From assembly GCF_028613635.1 (NCBI RefSeq), contig NZ_JAQRMY010000004.1, forward strand, positions 1 to 64,000: 64,000 nt of DNA. The letters run 5' to 3'. This stretch comes from Devosia sp. ZB163 (lineage in GTDB: Bacteria > Pseudomonadota > Alphaproteobacteria > Rhizobiales > Devosiaceae). A program made the position numbers and the translations under genes. Positions 42,663 through 49,492 of this stretch are shown here, piece by piece. The notes beneath the pieces are model-generated. The model was not told the origin of the DNA. It was given only the letters and a program-made list of their open reading frames with translations, and searched no databases. Position 1 is the first letter of the stretch. Each line of letters starts with the position of its first letter.

Positions 42663-43760
42663 CTACAGATAGTCCATCAAGCTCATCGAGCGTCCTTCGT
42701 CGCCGCTACTGCTGCCGAAGGCGGAGGAGCCGGTGACCTGGCCGAGGATGGAGCCGAGCTTGCTGGCCGTCTGATAGTTGGCGACGGCGGCGTTGTAGAG
42801 GTTTTCGGACCAGCCGGCGGCGGCGCGCTCCTCGCTGCTCATGGCGCCGTAGAGCGAGATGACGTTCTGGGCAAAGCCGGCGGGGTTGCCGTTGCCGGCG
42901 GACTTGAGGCTCTGCAGCAGCGCGGCGCCCGAGCGGGAGCGCATTTCCTGCGAAGCGGCTCGGACCTCGGTCGGCGAGAATTTGTCCGCCGAGTTGAGCG
43001 CCACCGAGGCGAGGGAGCGGCTGTCGAACTCGGAATAGTCGGGCTTGCTGCTGCCGGTCGCCTTGTACTGGGCGTCGAGCGTGGTGCGGGCGTCGGCGGC
43101 GACGTTGGCGATGTCGCGCGGCTTGCCGGTTTCGCCTGTGGCGAGACGCTCCATGTAGGCGTTGATCGGATCGTTGGGCACGGCGCCAGGGAGGGTCGAG
43201 GGCTTGGCCTCGATCTGCTTCAGCATCTCCTCGAGCGCGGCGCGCTGGTCGACATAAGCGGCGGAGGCCTTCTCCTCAGGGCCCATGGCGTCGAAATAGG
43301 CGAGGGCGGCGACGTAGAGGCCTTTGACACTGCCGGTGACGCGGCCGACGGCGGTGGGGCCGGCGAGCGCCTGGTCGAAGCGGTTCTGCAGCTCGATGGC
43401 GGCGGCCTTCTGCTCATCGGCGGTGAACAGCTGGTTGGAGTTGGTGCTCATCGCATAGAGCTCGCGCCGATCGACCTTGCTGAGGTCGAGAGCGAGCTTG
43501 CCGTCCTTCAGCGGGCTCGTGAGCTTTGCGTCGGAAAGCAGCTTGTCGAGGGTAGCGCGCGCCTCGGTGGTGACGGTGGCGAAGCTCTTCTCGGCCAGCG
43601 CGGCCTTGGCGGCATCGGAGAGCGTCACGCTGGTGGCGGAACTGCCGGAACTACCCGACGTCGAAGCGGCGGTGCCGGCGGTGGCCTGCTGCGACTTCTG
43701 CGCGCTCGCGAGGATCTGCGCATAGCTCATGGACTGGCTGACGGTACCGACGCTGGTCAT
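42663..43760 (-). CDS. Hypothetical Ala/Ser-rich protein
   Basis: The 365-residue protein lacks a signal peptide, opens with a Ser/Ala/Thr/Gly-rich tract (about 15-40) and is then mainly helical (AKAALAEKSFATVTTEARATLDKLL). It recalls secreted or flagellum-associated proteins, but no domain is certain. The start at MTSVGT was preferred to an upstream ATG. Confidence 0.65.
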   Translation of the reverse strand: MTSVGTVSQSMSYAQILASAQKSQQATAGTAASTSGSSGSSATSVTLSDAAKAALAEKSFATVTTEARATLDKLLSDAKLTSPLKDGKLALDLSKVDRRELYAMSTNSNQLFTADEQKAAAIELQNRFDQALAGPTAVGRVTGSVKGLYVAALAYFDAMGPEEKASAAYVDQRAALEEMLKQIEAKPSTLPGAVPNDPINAYMERLATGETGKPRDIANVAADARTTLDAQYKATGSSKPDYSEFDSRSLASVALNSADKFSPTEVRAASQEMRSRSGAALLQSLKSAGNGNPAGFAQNVISLYGAMSSEERAAAGWSENLYNAAVANYQTASKLGSILGQVTGSSAFGSSSGDEGRSMSLMDYL

Positions 43761-43884
43761 GGAAGCCTCCGACGTTCGACGGAACCCCATGCAGATCGCG
43801 TGCCAGCCCGCAAAGCCCGGATTTCCGGGCGCCGTGCTGGCTCGGAACGGTCAGGCCGGCAGGAAATGCCGGGCACATGTTGCA

Positions 43885-43926
43885 GAAAAAGAAAAAGGGC
43901 TCCGCTCGAGGGGATGAGCGGAGCCC
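43885..43926 (-). terminator. Terminator of small RNA 3
   Basis: Perfect 11-bp stem, loop of 8 bases, and TTTTTCTTTTTC on the minus strand. Confidence 0.85.
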
Positions 43927-43970
43927 CGGAGGCCGGCTCGCCGAAGCGGGCGACCAAGGAGAAGCGGCCT

Positions 43971-43979
43971 GGGAGGAGG
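43971..43979 (-). ncRNA. CCUCCUCCC loop motif of small RNA 3
   Basis: The nine-base motif lies in the hairpin loop and is complementary to GGGAGGAGG-type ribosome binding sites. Confidence 0.75.
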
Positions 43980-44002
43980 TAGGCCGCGATCTCTTGAAAC
44001 TG

Positions 44003-44031
44003 ACTATCGCGGTGAAGGCCGCTGCGGACAA
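44003..44031 (-). promoter_or_regulatory. Putative promoter of small RNA 3
   Basis: TTGTCC and GATAGT, spaced 17 bases on the minus strand. Both boxes match the sigma-70 consensus only in part. Confidence 0.45.
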
Positions 44032-44109
44032 ACGCTTAGTCGGAACGGCTGCCATGCGTCAGGCGCGGGCGCATCGCCAGCGCGCTCGGATGGTCTAGTC
44101 GTCGGAAGC

Positions 44110-44141
44110 AAAAAAAGAGGCTCCATCCGAAGATGGAGCCT
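44110..44141 (-). terminator. Terminator of small RNA 2
   Basis: A 10-bp stem with a 4-base loop and T7 on the minus strand. Confidence 0.9.
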
Positions 44142-44188
44142 GATGAAAAGGACCGAAGTCCAAATCGAAAGTGGTGGCAAATGGACGA

Positions 44189-44287
44189 GGGAGGAGGATA
44201 CGCCATTTGCCAGTGGTTCTAGGTCGAGGGAGGAGGATACGACTTCGAACCGGGTGTCGCAGAGCAGGACCGTGGGAGGAGGATACG
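44189..44287 (-). repeat. Triple repeat of the 14-base anti-Shine-Dalgarno motif
   Basis: CGTATCCTCCTCCC occurs at 44287-44274, 44241-44228 and 44202-44189. The spacing is 46 and 39 bases, with unrelated stems around each, so only the loop is conserved. Confidence 0.85.
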
Positions 44288-44310
44288 GTGCGGCTCACAT
44301 CGACACTCAC

Positions 44311-44339
44311 AATATGCACTTTGACCGTTTGGTCAGCAA
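44311..44339 (-). promoter_or_regulatory. Putative promoter of small RNA 2
   Basis: TTGCTG (44339-44334) and CATATT (44316-44311) with a 17-base spacer on the minus strand. The spacer contains the inverted repeat TGACC/GGTCA, a possible regulator site. Confidence 0.45.
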
Positions 44340-44441
44340 TGCGCATTGCTACATGCCAGCTATGCAGTTTCCGCAGGGAAAGGACAGCTGTGCTGACATG
44401 ACGTAAACGTCACATTGCAGCACCGGTTTCATTTCGGGGGC

Positions 44442-44480
44442 AGAAAAGAATAAGGCCCCGCTCGAGGGGAGAGCGGGGCC
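44442..44480 (-). terminator. Terminator of small RNA 1
   Basis: A 10-bp GC-rich stem, 7-base loop, and a T-rich run on the minus strand. Confidence 0.8.
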
Positions 44481-44561
44481 GAGTTTGCAGACATTGCTGA
44501 CTGCAAGGAGGAACAACAACGAGCGCGAGGAGGAGGAGGGAGAAGCGCTCAGCTGCTGTCG
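44442..44561 (-). ncRNA. Small RNA 1 with a pyrimidine-rich CCUCCU loop
   Basis: Minus-strand TTGATA (44596-44591) and TATATC (44573-44568) spaced 17 bases predict a start near 44561. The first hairpin GAGCGC/GCGCTC (44521-44526 and 44545-44550) has a loop with TCTCCCTCCTCCTCC, a variant of the motif. The terminator GGCCCCGCTC/GAGCGGGGCC (44454-44480) is followed by TTATTCTTTTCT. This fits the same small-RNA class as the two units to its left. Confidence 0.7.
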
Positions 44562-44567
44562 GGGCGG

Positions 44568-44596
44568 GATATAGGTTCGTGATCCTGACCTATCAA
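44568..44596 (-). promoter_or_regulatory. Putative promoter of small RNA 1
   Basis: TTGATA and TATATC, 17-base spacer. The CCTATAT context also resembles -10 elements of alphaproteobacterial heat-shock sigma factors, which control CcsR RNAs in Rhodobacter. Confidence 0.55.
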
Positions 44597-44769
44597 CCCG
44601 GAATGATGAATGCGTGTTATGCAAAAAACGCATGGTTGCTAAGTCGATGGGTTTGCTCGTGTATTCCCTAAATCCGGTGTGCCACGCTGTCGCACGGTTG
44701 TTCATGTTTGTGGCCTAAGGCCCTGATGTGACAGTTTTTTGTCAGTGCCATGGGCGAATCCGGCAGGGC

Positions 44770-45756
44770 TCAGAGCCAGCCGCTACGCTTGAAGAACAGG
44801 TAGGGCAGGAGCGCGGACAGGAACATGAGCCCCAGCGCGAACGGATAGCCCAGGGCCCAGTCCAGCTCGGGCATGAAGTCGAAGTTCATGCCGTAGATCG
44901 AGGCGACCAGCGTCGGCGGCAGGAACACCACGGCCGCGACCGAGAAGATCTTGATGATCTGGTTCTGCTCGAGGTTGATCAGGCCCAGCGTCGCGTCGAG
45001 CAGGAAGGTGATCTTGTCGGAGAGGAAAGCGGCGTGGTCGCTGAGCGCCGTAGCGTCGCGCTGGAGGACCTTCAGTTCCAGCCTGCGTTCGCGCACCGCG
45101 CGCTGATCGTCGGTGCCGGCGGTCTGGTGGAAGCTGACGAGCCGGTTGATCGAGACGAGACTCTCGCGGGCCAGGGTGAGGACATCGCCCTTCTTGCCGA
45201 TCTGCTCGATCAGCGACTGCAGGTCGCGGGTCTTGCGGGTGGGCTTCTTGGCCTTGTTGCCGAACACTTCGCGCGAGATCTGGTCGATGCCGTCGCCGGT
45301 GGTTTCGAGCAGTTGGGCCAGGCGATCGATGAAGGATTCGAGCAGGCCGATCATGACGCGCTCGCCGCCGAACTCGCCCTTGTTGGCACGGGAGACGAAA
45401 CGCTCGTAGAGACGGAACGGCTTGGGGTCGGCGTAGCGGACGGTCACCAGCTGGTCGTTGCGCAGGACGAAGGTGATCGGCGTCTTGATCGGCTGCTCGC
45501 CCTCACCGTCGATGAGGGCGGTGATGGTCATGAACTCGGCGCCGTCCTCGCTGTAGAGGCGAGCGGAGGGCTCGATGTCCTGCATCTCGCGGCGGGTCGG
45601 GATGTCGATGCCGAGGCACGACTCGACGAACTTGTCTTCCTCGCGCGTGGGGTCGGTAAGGCTGTACCAGACGGCGCCGCCGAGATTGGCGTCGGACGCA
45701 GGGTCAAAATCGGTGGGAACGAGGCGGTCGCCTTCGCGAATATAGGCACGCAGCAT
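44770..45756 (-). CDS. corA: Magnesium/cobalt transporter CorA
   Basis: The 328-residue protein has the long soluble funnel domain, then two membrane helices at the C-terminus with the signature YGMNF between them. CorA forms a pentameric Mg channel in the inner membrane. The start at 45756 gives the family length. The 194-base upstream region to the next gene contains a GGGCC/GGCCC hairpin near 45780, but no known magnesium riboswitch could be recognised. Confidence 0.9.
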   Translation of the reverse strand: MLRAYIREGDRLVPTDFDPASDANLGGAVWYSLTDPTREEDKFVESCLGIDIPTRREMQDIEPSARLYSEDGAEFMTITALIDGEGEQPIKTPITFVLRNDQLVTVRYADPKPFRLYERFVSRANKGEFGGERVMIGLLESFIDRLAQLLETTGDGIDQISREVFGNKAKKPTRKTRDLQSLIEQIGKKGDVLTLARESLVSINRLVSFHQTAGTDDQRAVRERRLELKVLQRDATALSDHAAFLSDKITFLLDATLGLINLEQNQIIKIFSVAAVVFLPPTLVASIYGMNFDFMPELDWALGYPFALGLMFLSALLPYLFFKRSGWL

Positions 45757-45949: not shown

Positions 45950-46444
45950 TCAGTTCTCGAAGACCGAGGAAAGGACGGTGCGCAGGTCACCCTCGGTGGC
46001 GTAGGCGAGGTTGTCGATGCGCCAGAAACTGGCGCCGGTCGCGGGGTCGTCGACCTGCTTCAGCATCAGGGAGTCGCTGAAGTTGGCGTCTGGGTAATCC
46101 TTGAAGGCATAGTCGATGGCGACACTGGCTTCGCCTGGCGTGAGGGTGACAGCGCCGGGCGTGCAGGTGTCGGCATAGTCGGGGAAGGCCTGCCACGGAA
46201 TGCCGTCGCCGAGCGGCGGCTTCTCGTCCGGGGTGGCTTTCTGGATGGTGTCGTTCTTCGCCTCGGCTTCGGCGATGGCGGACTTCAGTTCGGCGGTGAG
46301 CAGGCCCTCGACCGGTGTCATGTCGTTGCCCTCACGGGCGATGCAGAAGATCTCGCCGATCTGCTCGGGGCTGATGGTGACCATCTGGGCGAATGACGGC
46401 GTGGCGAGCAGGCAGAGCGCGGCTGCGGCGGCGAAACGGTGCAT
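45950..46444 (-). CDS. Small exported protein, paralogue of the gene at 47241
   Basis: The 164-residue protein has a signal peptide (ending TPSFAQ). The mature start, ISPEQIGEIFCIAREGNDMTPVEGLLT, resembles the paralogue's SGQFGAIFCMSRLSGDMAPVLAILT. The Cys and the acidic context are shared. Both end with charged C-terminal parts. The function is unknown. The two genes flank a GNAT gene. Confidence 0.7.
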   Translation of the reverse strand: MHRFAAAAALCLLATPSFAQMVTISPEQIGEIFCIAREGNDMTPVEGLLTAELKSAIAEAEAKNDTIQKATPDEKPPLGDGIPWQAFPDYADTCTPGAVTLTPGEASVAIDYAFKDYPDANFSDSLMLKQVDDPATGASFWRIDNLAYATEGDLRTVLSSVFEN

Positions 46445-47240: not shown

Positions 47241-47657
47241 TCAGCTGAGGCTGTCGCGGAGCGATGTTTTGTCGGCGAACAGGATGTCGTCGAGGCGCAG
47301 GCGGCCATCGACGAACACGGTGACGAGGCGATCGGAGAAGTTCGCCTTGTCGGGTTCCCGGTACTGGTAGGAGAGGATGATCTCGGGGCGTTCGGCCGTG
47401 CCGGCGGCGCCGACGGGCTGGCACATGGCGGCATAGTCGGGCTTGCCCTGCCAGCGGACCTGCGCCGGGTCGGCCTTGCCGACGAGGTCGGTGAGTTCGG
47501 GCGTGAGGATGGCGAGGACGGGCGCCATGTCGCCGGAGAGGCGCGACATGCAGAAGATCGCGCCGAACTGCCCGGACGTTAGCGAGTCCGCCTGGGACGG
47601 CGCGACGAGGAGGGCGGGCAGGAGCGCCAGCCCGAGCAGACGGTTCAGAATGACCAC
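47241..47657 (-). CDS. Small exported protein, paralogue of the gene at 45950
   Basis: The 138-residue protein has a signal peptide (LLGLALLPALLVAPSQA) and a mature region beginning SGQFGAIFCMSRLSGDMAPVLAILT, which mirrors the neighbour at 45950. It starts at a GTG that overlaps the end of the LysR gene by 13 bases, so it is translationally coupled to it. Function unknown. Confidence 0.7.
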   Translation of the reverse strand: MVILNRLLGLALLPALLVAPSQADSLTSGQFGAIFCMSRLSGDMAPVLAILTPELTDLVGKADPAQVRWQGKPDYAAMCQPVGAAGTAERPEIILSYQYREPDKANFSDRLVTVFVDGRLRLDDILFADKTSLRDSLS

Positions 47658-48538
47658 TCGCGTGCCTTGCCGACGAGGAAGTCGCGGAAGACGCCGACGC
47701 GCTTGGAATTCTTCAGCGCGGGCGGATAGACGAAATAGGCCTCGTAGGCCGGCAACTCGATGCCCGGGAGGACGCGGACGAGGTTGTCCTCACCCTCGGT
47801 GACGTAGTCGGGCAGCATGGCGATGCCGATGCCGGCGCGGGCGGCCTGCATCATGCCGTAGATGGCGTTGACCTTCATGGCGGCGCGGCGGGGCGAGGAG
47901 TCCGGTCGGCCGAGGCGCTCGAGGTAGTTGATGTCGCCGAGGTAGGAGGGGACGGGCTCGCCGAACGAGATGATGCGGTGCTTGTCCAGATCTTCGACGG
48001 CGGAGGGCTCGCCGAACTCGCCGACATAGCTGCGCGACGCATAGAAGTGGTTGTGCACCGTGAACAGCTTGCGCTGGATCATCTCTGACTGGTTCGGCCG
48101 GTGCAGCCGGATGGCGACGTCGGCCTCGCGCATGGCGAGATCGAGCTCGGCGTCGTTGAGCTTAATCTCGATCTGGATTTCCGGATAAAGGATCAGAAAC
48201 TCGTGGATGCGGGACGATAGCCAGGTCGAGCCGATACCCACCGTGGTGGTTACGAGCAGGGGGCCGGTCGGCACCTCCTGGCTCTCGGACATCTGCGTCT
48301 CGACCTGCTGCAGCTCCCAATGCATGCGGTGCGCGGTGCGGAAGAGCTGCTCGCCGACTTCGGTCAGAACCAGCCCGCGGGCGTGGCGGATGAAGAGCTT
48401 GAGCCCAAGGTCTTCCTCGAGTGCCGAAATCTGCCGCGAGACGGCAGACTGGCTCATGTTCAGCCGCTCGGCGGCGTGGGTAAAGGACCCTGATTCAGCG
48501 GCGGTGTGGAAGATGCGGAGCTTGTCCCAATCCAGCAT
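47645..48538 (-). CDS. LysR-family regulator next to trxB
   Basis: The 297-residue protein has an N-terminal helix-turn-helix (LRIFHTAAESGSFTHAAERL, then MSQSAVSRQISALEEDLG) and a periplasmic-binding-like effector domain. It starts 3 bases after the trxB stop, so it is in one operon with trxB. This LysR-trxB pairing recurs in Hyphomicrobiales. The target genes are not known to me. Confidence 0.85.
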   Translation of the reverse strand: MLDWDKLRIFHTAAESGSFTHAAERLNMSQSAVSRQISALEEDLGLKLFIRHARGLVLTEVGEQLFRTAHRMHWELQQVETQMSESQEVPTGPLLVTTTVGIGSTWLSSRIHEFLILYPEIQIEIKLNDAELDLAMREADVAIRLHRPNQSEMIQRKLFTVHNHFYASRSYVGEFGEPSAVEDLDKHRIISFGEPVPSYLGDINYLERLGRPDSSPRRAAMKVNAIYGMMQAARAGIGIAMLPDYVTEGEDNLVRVLPGIELPAYEAYFVYPPALKNSKRVGVFRDFLVGKAREWSF

Positions 48539-48541
48539 CGG

Positions 48542-49492
48542 CTATTCCGCAGCTTCCGCGAGCTCGACCGAGGCGAGGAACTCCTCGGCGTCGAGTGCGG
48601 CCATGCAGCCCATGCCGGCCGCAGTCACGGCCTGGCGATAGACATCGTCGGTAACGTCGCCCGCGGCGAAGACACCCGGGATGTTCGTGGAGGTGCCGCC
48701 GGGCACGACCTTGAGATAGCCTCCGGGCTTCATGTCCAGCTTGCCCGAGAAGATGGAGGTCGCCGGCTGGTGGCCGATGGCGATGAAGACGCCATCGACG
48801 TTCTTCTCGGTGACCTGGCCGGTCCTGGTGTCGCGGATCTTTACGCCCTTCACGGAGCGGGGCATGTCGTCGCCGTAGACCTCTTCGATCTCGGCGTTCC
48901 AGATCACCTCGACCTTCTCGTTCTTGAACAGGCGCTCCTGCAGGATGCGCTCGGCGCGGAACTCGCCGCGGCGGTGAACGACGGTGACCTTGGATGCGAA
49001 GTTGGTGAGGAAGAGGGCTTCCTCGACGGCGGTGTTGCCGCCGCCGACCACGACCACTTCCTTGCCACGGTAGAAGAAGCCGTCGCAGGTGGCGCAGGCC
49101 GATACGCCGAAGCCCTGGAAGTGGGTTTCGGAGTCGAGACCGAGCCAGCGCGCCTGGGCGCCGGTTGCGATGATGACGGCATCGGCGGTGTAGGTCGTGC
49201 CGCTATCGCCCTTGAGGACGAAGGGGCGGCGGTCGAAGTCGACCTCGACGATGATATCGTTGATCATCTTCGTGCCGACGTGCTCGGCCTGAGCCTTCAT
49301 CTGCTCCATGAGCCAGGGGCCCTGGATGACGTCGGCGAAGCCGGGATAGTTCTCGACATCGGTGGTGATCGTGAGCTGGCCGCCGGGCTGGAGGCCCGCA
49401 ATCATGACCGGCTCGAGCATTGCGCGCGCCGCATAGATGGCGGCGGTGTAGCCGGCCGGACCCGATCCGATGATGACGACCTTAGCGTGCAC
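48542..49492 (-). CDS. trxB: Thioredoxin reductase
   Basis: The 316-residue flavoprotein reduces thioredoxin with NADPH. It has the FAD motif IIGSGPAGYTAAIYAARA at the N-terminus, the redox pair CATC at 133-136, and the NADPH motif VVVVGGGNTAVEEA. The C-terminal FAD part includes GVFAAGDVTDDVYRQAVTAAG. Length is typical. It heads an operon with the LysR gene. Confidence 0.95.
   Translation of the reverse strand: MHAKVVIIGSGPAGYTAAIYAARAMLEPVMIAGLQPGGQLTITTDVENYPGFADVIQGPWLMEQMKAQAEHVGTKMINDIIVEVDFDRRPFVLKGDSGTTYTADAVIIATGAQARWLGLDSETHFQGFGVSACATCDGFFYRGKEVVVVGGGNTAVEEALFLTNFASKVTVVHRRGEFRAERILQERLFKNEKVEVIWNAEIEEVYGDDMPRSVKGVKIRDTRTGQVTEKNVDGVFIAIGHQPATSIFSGKLDMKPGGYLKVVPGGTSTNIPGVFAAGDVTDDVYRQAVTAAGMGCMAALDAEEFLASVELAEAAE

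Follow-up and report, generated by a model that had tools for sequence, protein, structure and literature searches.

Three candidate small RNAs with anti-Shine-Dalgarno loops lie downstream of trxB-lsrB in Devosia sp. ZB163

What are the three terminator-bearing units that lie side by side between two protein genes of Devosia sp. ZB163, and what might control them? They fall within a window of 64,000 nucleotides (positions 1 to 64,000 of contig NZ_JAQRMY010000004.1), where they occupy 43885-44640 on the minus strand between a corA-like gene, with its stop at 44770, and a hypothetical gene (42663-43790, start ~43760-43790), both likewise on the minus strand. The unit starts (44561, 44304 and 43996) are unmapped guesses of an earlier sequence-only reading, and the unit ends used for folding are that reading's or were set by eye. 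The -35-like and -10-like hexamers were also picked by eye from the sequence; a scan for sigma-70 consensus promoters gave 0 sites. The features are as follows.

48542..49492, minus strand: presumably trxB, thioredoxin reductase (named from its translation), adjoining lsrB as in A. tumefaciens
47645..48538, minus strand: lsrB/vtlR, encoding a LysR-type regulator that is proposed to activate units 1 to 3
44770..45756, minus strand: corA-like gene (a name that we presume from its translation), upstream of unit 1
44569..44633, minus strand: putative unit 1 promoter region, LsrB-type box TGCATAACACGCAT at 44623-44610, -35-like TTGATA at 44596-44591, -10-like CTATAT at 44574-44569
44444..44561, minus strand: candidate unit 1 sRNA with an anatomy like that of AbcR: a first stem-loop whose CU-rich loop is CCUCCUCCUCC, then unpaired GUUCCUCC, another hairpin and the terminator at 44480-44454
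44311..44366, minus strand: putative unit 2 promoter region, box TGCATAGCTGGCAT at 44366-44353, -35-like TTGCTG at 44339-44334, -10-like CATATT at 44316-44311
44111..44304, minus strand: candidate unit 2 sRNA, three hairpins with UAUCCUCCUCCC loops, small hairpin, terminator 44141-44118; ar14-like
44275-44282, 44229-44236 and 44190-44197, minus strand: CCUCCUCC loop sites of unit 2
44003..44057, minus strand: putative unit 3 promoter region, box GCATGGCAGCCGT at 44057-44045, -35-like TTTGTC, -10-like GATAGT at 44008-44003
43888..43996, minus strand: candidate unit 3 sRNA, one CCUCCUCCC hairpin loop at 43972-43979, middle hairpin, terminator 43927-43896 with UCCCCUC loop

Two small proteins encoded on the minus strand between corA and lsrB (45950-46444 and 47241-47657) are mutually similar, at ~27-45% identity, each matching the other's place in relatives; they may be a duplicated pair.

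The sequence-only reading had described three tandem minus-strand units with terminators and five loops of a constant type, and both descriptions held. Intrinsic terminators at 44480-44454, 44141-44118 and 43927-43896 close one unit each; with three found against a shuffle mean of 2.1, the terminator scan is not significant by itself. On the minus strand of 43750-44800 we found five separate CCTCCTCC sites (44529-44539, 44275-44282, 44229-44236, 44190-44197 and 43972-43979), where dinucleotide shuffles averaged 0.064 and none of 2000 reached five. Across the whole window the motif has 11 matches against 3.9 expected, a count reached by one of 100 shuffles. The three terminator-bearing units together carry five CCUCCUCC sites, and the 14-mer CGTATCCTCCTCCC can be read in all three loops of unit 2, as had been claimed. 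Fold z-scores were -8.37, -7.05 and -4.90 for units 1, 2 and 3 (200 dinucleotide shuffles each). Units 1 and 3 have C-rich terminator loops as well (UCCCCUC), at the place of the third anti-Shine-Dalgarno (aSD) hairpin in the ar14 model.

By blastn the region is present in 30 of 61 Devosiaceae genomes. The 30 include its own genome, and every one of the 18 Devosia genomes is among them. From these 30 we arranged 22 clusters by hand, a selection that omits G003, G005, G008, G012, G014, G017, G037 and G054. The usual set of aSD motifs in a cluster is a single unit-1 type, one or two of the unit-2 type and a single unit-3 type; G022 is among the exceptions. The unit-2 alignment (A1; 23 rows from 21 genomes) omits G022, in which two hairpins were seen, and the four-loop unit of G033, while the unit-1 alignment (A4; 19 rows) omits G016, G018 and G020. 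TCCTCCC occurs three times in 23 of 23 unit-2 sequences, and CCTCCTCCC three times in 21 of the 23 and twice in G007 and G016.

These alignments to relatives, a check that the sequence-only reading had proposed, bear out its view of constant loops on diverged stems: among the 23 unit-2 sequences, 28 of 35 consensus stem pairs show two-sided change and the loops are nearly fixed. Pairing extends to 92.7% of cells, and none of five measures was reached by any of 500 shuffles; the shuffles ignore relatedness, which can inflate the score and the percentage paired but rarely the counts of pairs or types. When the partner is slid by 1-3 columns, unit-2 pairing falls to 28-50%, a comparison that favours the structure because it was derived from that same alignment. 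We take this pattern as the probable mark of RNA under selection, with the loop as its constant part. ORFs of 83-134 aa in the ORF list do overlap the units, as they would if there were no RNA genes here and a small protein or a DNA element accounted for the conservation. That reading sits badly with the terminator at each unit end and with the unit-2 alignment, whose 23 sequences combine length-changing gaps with compensatory stem changes, and we consider it extremely improbable.

We then asked what accompanies the units. The LysR-type gene at 47645-48538 sits 3 kb upstream on the same strand and is itself preceded on that strand by the gene at 48542-49492. The best solved relative of its protein is PDB 9HH1 (371.6 bits, residues 2-297), given as A. 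tumefaciens LsrB in the available text of PMC11975290, and the gene is the LsrB/VtlR ortholog. According to the accessible part of PMC7486931, trxB is the partner gene of lsrB/vtlR, and in A. tumefaciens abcR1 and abcR2 follow immediately after trxB-vtlR. All 20 stretches that we obtained from relatives have lsrB upstream of the sRNA cluster on the same strand (L034 and L039 end inside the gene): lsrB is the constant neighbour of the cluster. A corA match stands between the two in 8 of the 20 stretches only, so corA is no fixed partner. This count bears on the possibility that the RNAs derive from the corA 3' UTR, cut from the corA mRNA and its readthrough. Such an origin would suit the position of corA, just upstream on the same strand, and the want of a clear terminator after it (none seen by eye, none listed by the scan), but the units have boxes and -10-like elements of their own in front, and lsrB rather than corA is upstream in every relative. 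Because corA is no constant neighbour, we reject its 3' UTR as the main reading and think this origin highly unlikely.

The sequence-only reading missed both the regulator lsrB and its boxes. Two forms of box have been published: GCAT-N3-TG-N3-T, the LsrB/VtlR box at -61 to -49 in PabcR1, with a gel shift, in the portion of PMC8844928 available, and TGCA-N6-GCAT in PnfeR1, from the available text of PMC10746234, which also has LsrB activating NfeR1/ar14. The unit 2 box fits both forms exactly. That of unit 1 fits TGCA-N6-GCAT and has two mismatches to GCAT-N3-TG-N3-T; that of unit 3 has one mismatch to the latter form, with an exact GCATGGCTGACGT in relatives G015, G016 and G011. Each box begins 61 nt upstream of a unit's start, as placed by the unmapped guesses, and the distance from box start to first loop motif is 82, 82 and 78 nt for units 1, 2 and 3. 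We defined a box-loop pair as either published form, or a looser GCAT-N6-CAT, followed 75-85 nt later by YCCTCC. The 22 clusters contain 51 such pairs against 0.06 expected (50 shuffles each), with 1-3 per cluster and two in the Devosia sp. ZB163 cluster. TGCA-N6-GCAT occurs six times in the whole window against 2.1 expected; 4 of 100 shuffles reach six, and three of the six lie at the units. Together, lsrB and the boxes point to probable LsrB/VtlR control of the units. In front of unit 1, at 44610-44633, TGCA-N6-GCAT boxes overlap on opposite strands (the second at 44620-44633), a possible double LsrB site.

To which known RNAs are the units closest? The label given by the sequence-only reading was CcsR/'cuckoo'. 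Membership of the broad group of aSD-loop sRNAs that includes ar14 and CcsR stands; the specific CcsR/DUF1127 match does not, the best CcsR1 score (RF02791) being 24.8 bits, on unit 2, with 20.1 on unit 3 and 15.1 on unit 1, against a gathering score of 65.3. A CcsR-type stress operon would, as in Rhodobacter, comprise a single precursor, RNase E processing, RpoH-driven expression and DUF1127 protein maturation. The CCUCCUCCC loops, the tandem order – both shared with CcsR1-4/CcaF1 of Rhodobacter sphaeroides – and the weak CcsR1 matches in all units speak for it. Here, however, every unit has its own terminator and box, and ar14 outscores CcsR1. Nor was a DUF1127 partner found: at E<=0.01 the Pfam profile matches nothing in the window, contrary to the DUF1127 gene that had been placed 11 kb away, and of its seven places in the genome the nearest on the same contig is at C4:316638. 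On score, partner and terminators we rejected the CcsR/DUF1127 operon, which we judge improbable.

Rfam covariance models, the other check that had been proposed, gave ar14 and CcsR1 matches in all units, all below the gathering score, with ar14 above CcsR1 for each. In the local scan, ar14 (RF02344) scored 38.8, 32.9 and 26.2 bits on units 3, 2 and 1 against a gathering score of 58.8. A whole-genome search at E<=10 ranked the locus first (unit 2, 32.9 bits, E 3.9e-4; unit 3 region, 17.2 bits), and unit 1 was absent from its matches; at the same E, 9 of 14 control genomes matched too, none over the cut-off. At E<=0.1, 26 of 28 relatives matched, one of them over the cut-off (G033, 62.2 bits), and one of 14 controls. 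In one relative, L034, an extra ar14-like match (1625-1711; G001:C40:40124-40210) scores 28.7 bits at a distance of several kb downstream from the cluster.

The likeness to ar14/NfeR1 of Sinorhizobium meliloti (SmelA075/SmelA099) extends to three CCUCCUCCC loops with diverged stems in unit 2, the LsrB-type box upstream, multiple copies and transporter-type candidate targets. Three hairpins with CCUCCUCCC loops and variable stems are found in unit 2 only. In the Rfam consensus the third aSD hairpin doubles as the terminator, whereas the third loop of unit 2 does not, its terminator being separate, with a UUCG loop; further differences are the scores (26-39 bits vs 58.8) and the tandem array near lsrB. 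Unit 2 had been thought an unusual multi-loop form. This view falls, since multi-loop CCUCCUCCC RNAs with variable stems were already described (PMC3927594, section 2.7; available text of PMC10746234), with three loops in S. meliloti SmelA075 and four in SmelA099 (PMC3927594, section 2.7). The families given for ar14 in the accessible text of the review PMC7143759, which cites the 'cuckoo' paper for ar14, are Rhizobiaceae, Brucellaceae and Phyllobacteriaceae; Devosiaceae lie outside them. NfeR1 has been reported as Hfq-independent in a source available in part. Elsewhere in unit 2, the 3' end (44104-44168, minus strand) has a weak suhB/mmgR match of 20.8 bits (gathering score 41); the lsrB-linked RNAs of L067 and L068 match the same family at 29.6 and 31.2 bits, and suhB and ar15 share one Rfam clan.

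AbcR1/AbcR2 (ar15) resemble the units in place: these too are tandem sRNAs downstream of trxB-vtlR/lsrB and on its strand, with an LsrB box at about -61, and the same layout occurs in other families. Unit 1 also resembles them in anatomy: its aSD loop is followed by another CU-rich stretch, which is unpaired, by a further hairpin and by the terminator. The differences are a longer CCUCCUCC tract here, the 3 kb with other genes that separates lsrB from the units, a weak reciprocal model search (below) and the ar15 scores. The ar15 model (RF02345, gathering score 40) gave no match up to E 10 in the local scan of the units and none over the cut-off in 61 Devosiaceae genomes; at E<=0.1 it matched in 4 of the 61, in one also on the unit-1 place (G032, 21.6 bits). 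By score, the cluster lies outside ar14, ar15 and CcsR1 as Rfam draws them. On all that is readable from its sequence, it would work like ar14/AbcR. Neither Devosia nor Devosiaceae appears in the literature matches listed on such sRNAs, a search that left most subscription papers outside, so that a prior mention is possible.

To place the locus within its order, we surveyed the stretch downstream of lsrB. Of 121 genomes of the order, that of Devosia sp. ZB163 included, 108 have an LsrB match (E<=1e-90); the survey covered 70 of these 108, and Rfam was run on 29 of the 70 loci. Of the 70 lsrB loci, 29 have a box followed 60-110 nt later by an aSD motif (26 of the 66 non-Devosiaceae loci), compared with 1 of 70 when the reverse strand is read; the Devosia sp. 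ZB163 locus counts as a miss here because only 1500 nt were read. Among the 29 Rfam loci, ar15 was over its cut-off at L069 and below it at L070, L077, L079 and L088, and ar14 matched L067, L068 and L094, all below cut-off. SorX matched L069 and L077 and outscored ar15 at the latter. Other families have AbcR-type sRNAs at the same place downstream of lsrB.

We built reciprocal models, R1 from Devosiaceae unit 1 and R2 from 12 lsrB-linked AbcR-type RNAs. R1 gave 26 matches (E<=1; 15 with E<0.1) in the 66 non-Devosiaceae loci, and all 26 lie at most 1000 nt downstream of lsrB on its strand, a zone that makes up 11.7% of the search space; as these loci consist largely of coding sequence, their intergenic stretch would draw any model built on a C-rich RNA with a terminator. 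Of 54 further loci, 29 had R2 matches at E<=0.1; these number 30, and all of them lie within that same distance downstream and on that strand. Over 20 Devosiaceae sources, R2 found nothing on the units of our window and weak, scattered matches in relatives, the best (E 0.011) on a unit-2 type of G033, with unit 1 matched in seven sources at E 0.6-3.3. Both models rest mostly on sequence, since their RNAalifold structures hold 10 pairs each, chiefly in the terminator. R1 matches Devosiaceae units 2 and 3 as well, which means that the three units resemble each other. In our reading, place and anatomy make unit 1 AbcR-like; the reciprocal models are strong forward and weak in reverse. The locus is the predicted Devosiaceae version of the trxB-lsrB-sRNA arrangement.

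In families f40 (L089, L094, L102) and f51 (L117, L118), one to three two-loop aSD units lie downstream of lsrB, some of them near-identical within one genome. A TGCA-N6-GCAT box precedes the loop by ~91-102 nt in many, not all, of these units: two of three in L089, two of three in L118, three of three in L117 and the single units of L094 and L102.

Which mRNAs might such loops meet? In the Devosia sp. ZB163 genome, GGGAGGA-N4-10-ATG occurs 95 times, against 17 with GTA and 14 in a backward control, an excess that mainly shows GGGAGGA to be used as a Shine-Dalgarno (SD) sequence. For the full 9-mer GGGAGGAGG, the genome shows no enrichment before ATG (3 vs 3 with GTA and 1 in the backward control), and the 7-mer was chosen after this result was known. 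The 95 matches represent 92 loci and 91 distinct ORFs, 67 of them of at least 80 aa, the longer ORF being kept where two matches shared a stretch; two later matches, L325 (which likely encodes a substrate-binding protein) and L326 (12 aa), stand outside the Pfam count. Among the 67 ORFs, Pfam identified 11 Peripla_BP_4, 10 SBP_bac_1 and 2 DctP, plus further transporter parts.

Substrate-binding proteins thus number about 23 of 67, on the assumption that each matches a single one of the three families, compared with some 2-3 among 57 control ORFs (Fisher p 1e-5 or 5e-5 with 2 or 3 control cases). The controls stand behind AAAGGAG (33 matches, 20 in its backward control) or AAGGAGA (70 matches, 12 in its backward control), SDs that are A-rich, and include some chance ORFs. 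Their count is given as 2-3 because 25 of 78 control families were listed; among those 25, Peripla_BP_4, SBP_bac_1 and DctP were absent and there was one OpuAC. Transporter genes may favour this SD for reasons of their own, and the SD link could stem from that preference. NfeR1 and AbcR have been reported, in sources available in part, to act on transport mRNAs.

A different use of the loops would be as ribosome decoys, occupying mRNA SDs generally or competing with 16S rRNA in stress, with no defined regulon. Loops that match any strong GGAGG, several to an RNA, would serve this end; the GGGAGGA genes, though, are a transporter-rich class, and the published relatives repress defined mRNAs according to the partial texts available, so that we find decoys an unlikely account.

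The explanation that we favour, and consider probable, is that the locus encodes three LsrB/VtlR-activated, trans-acting sRNAs with additive effect, whose loops would block the SDs of nutrient-uptake mRNAs. It builds on the observed anatomy, conservation, covariation, box positions, lsrB linkage and make-up of the GGGAGGA genes. The predicted steps are transcription, LsrB binding, pairing and repression. Each of the three sibling RNAs would be made as a transcript of its own from a separate sigma-70-like promoter, and LsrB/VtlR, bound ~61 nt ahead of the presumed start, would activate each promoter. Their CU-rich loops, one or more per RNA, would imitate the 16S rRNA 3' end and base-pair with SDs of the GGGAGGA type, as in AbcR/NfeR1 action. 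Ribosome loading would then be blocked on nutrient-uptake mRNAs, above all those of sugar ABC substrate-binding proteins, and several loops per RNA and several RNAs per locus would give redundant, additive capacity. Published accounts of the first step differ: under the conditions of PMC7486931, LsrB of S. meliloti is without control over AbcR, contrary to PMC8844928, as far as the available texts of both papers go.

LsrB of Devosia sp. ZB163 contains no cysteine. Aligned with 9HH1, it has valines where A. tumefaciens LsrB has C144 and C273, and neither place holds a cysteine in any of 20 Devosiaceae stretches (L034 and L039 partial), while the C236 place does in 9 of the 20. Outside Devosiaceae, the C144 place has a cysteine in 4 of 66 loci and the C273 place in 2, so that the pair, called conserved in the available text of PMC11975290, is not general in these orthologs. 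A broader and tentative scenario, which we hold to be possible rather than likely, is that aSD sRNAs have, throughout the order, a nursery downstream of trxB-lsrB, where AbcR-type genes duplicate in tandem and gain or lose aSD hairpins at nearly fixed LsrB-box spacing. The ar14-like RNAs would have arisen there from AbcR in Devosiaceae, and similar multi-loop arrays again in f40 and f51. As Devosiaceae LsrB is without the conserved redox cysteine pair, the Devosiaceae array may answer a signal other than thiol oxidation.

The arrangement is related to, yet distinct from, known small RNAs of root-nodule bacteria. In it the separately named ar14/NfeR1 and ar15/AbcR come together at a single locus, with the same regulator box and the same spacing, which makes the origin of such sibling RNAs open to test. 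The missing cysteine pair makes Devosia LsrB a natural test of the redox-sensing model for this regulator. Under the proposed mechanism, the soil genus Devosia would join the rhizobial and Brucella families as one more group in which LsrB governs nutrient uptake.
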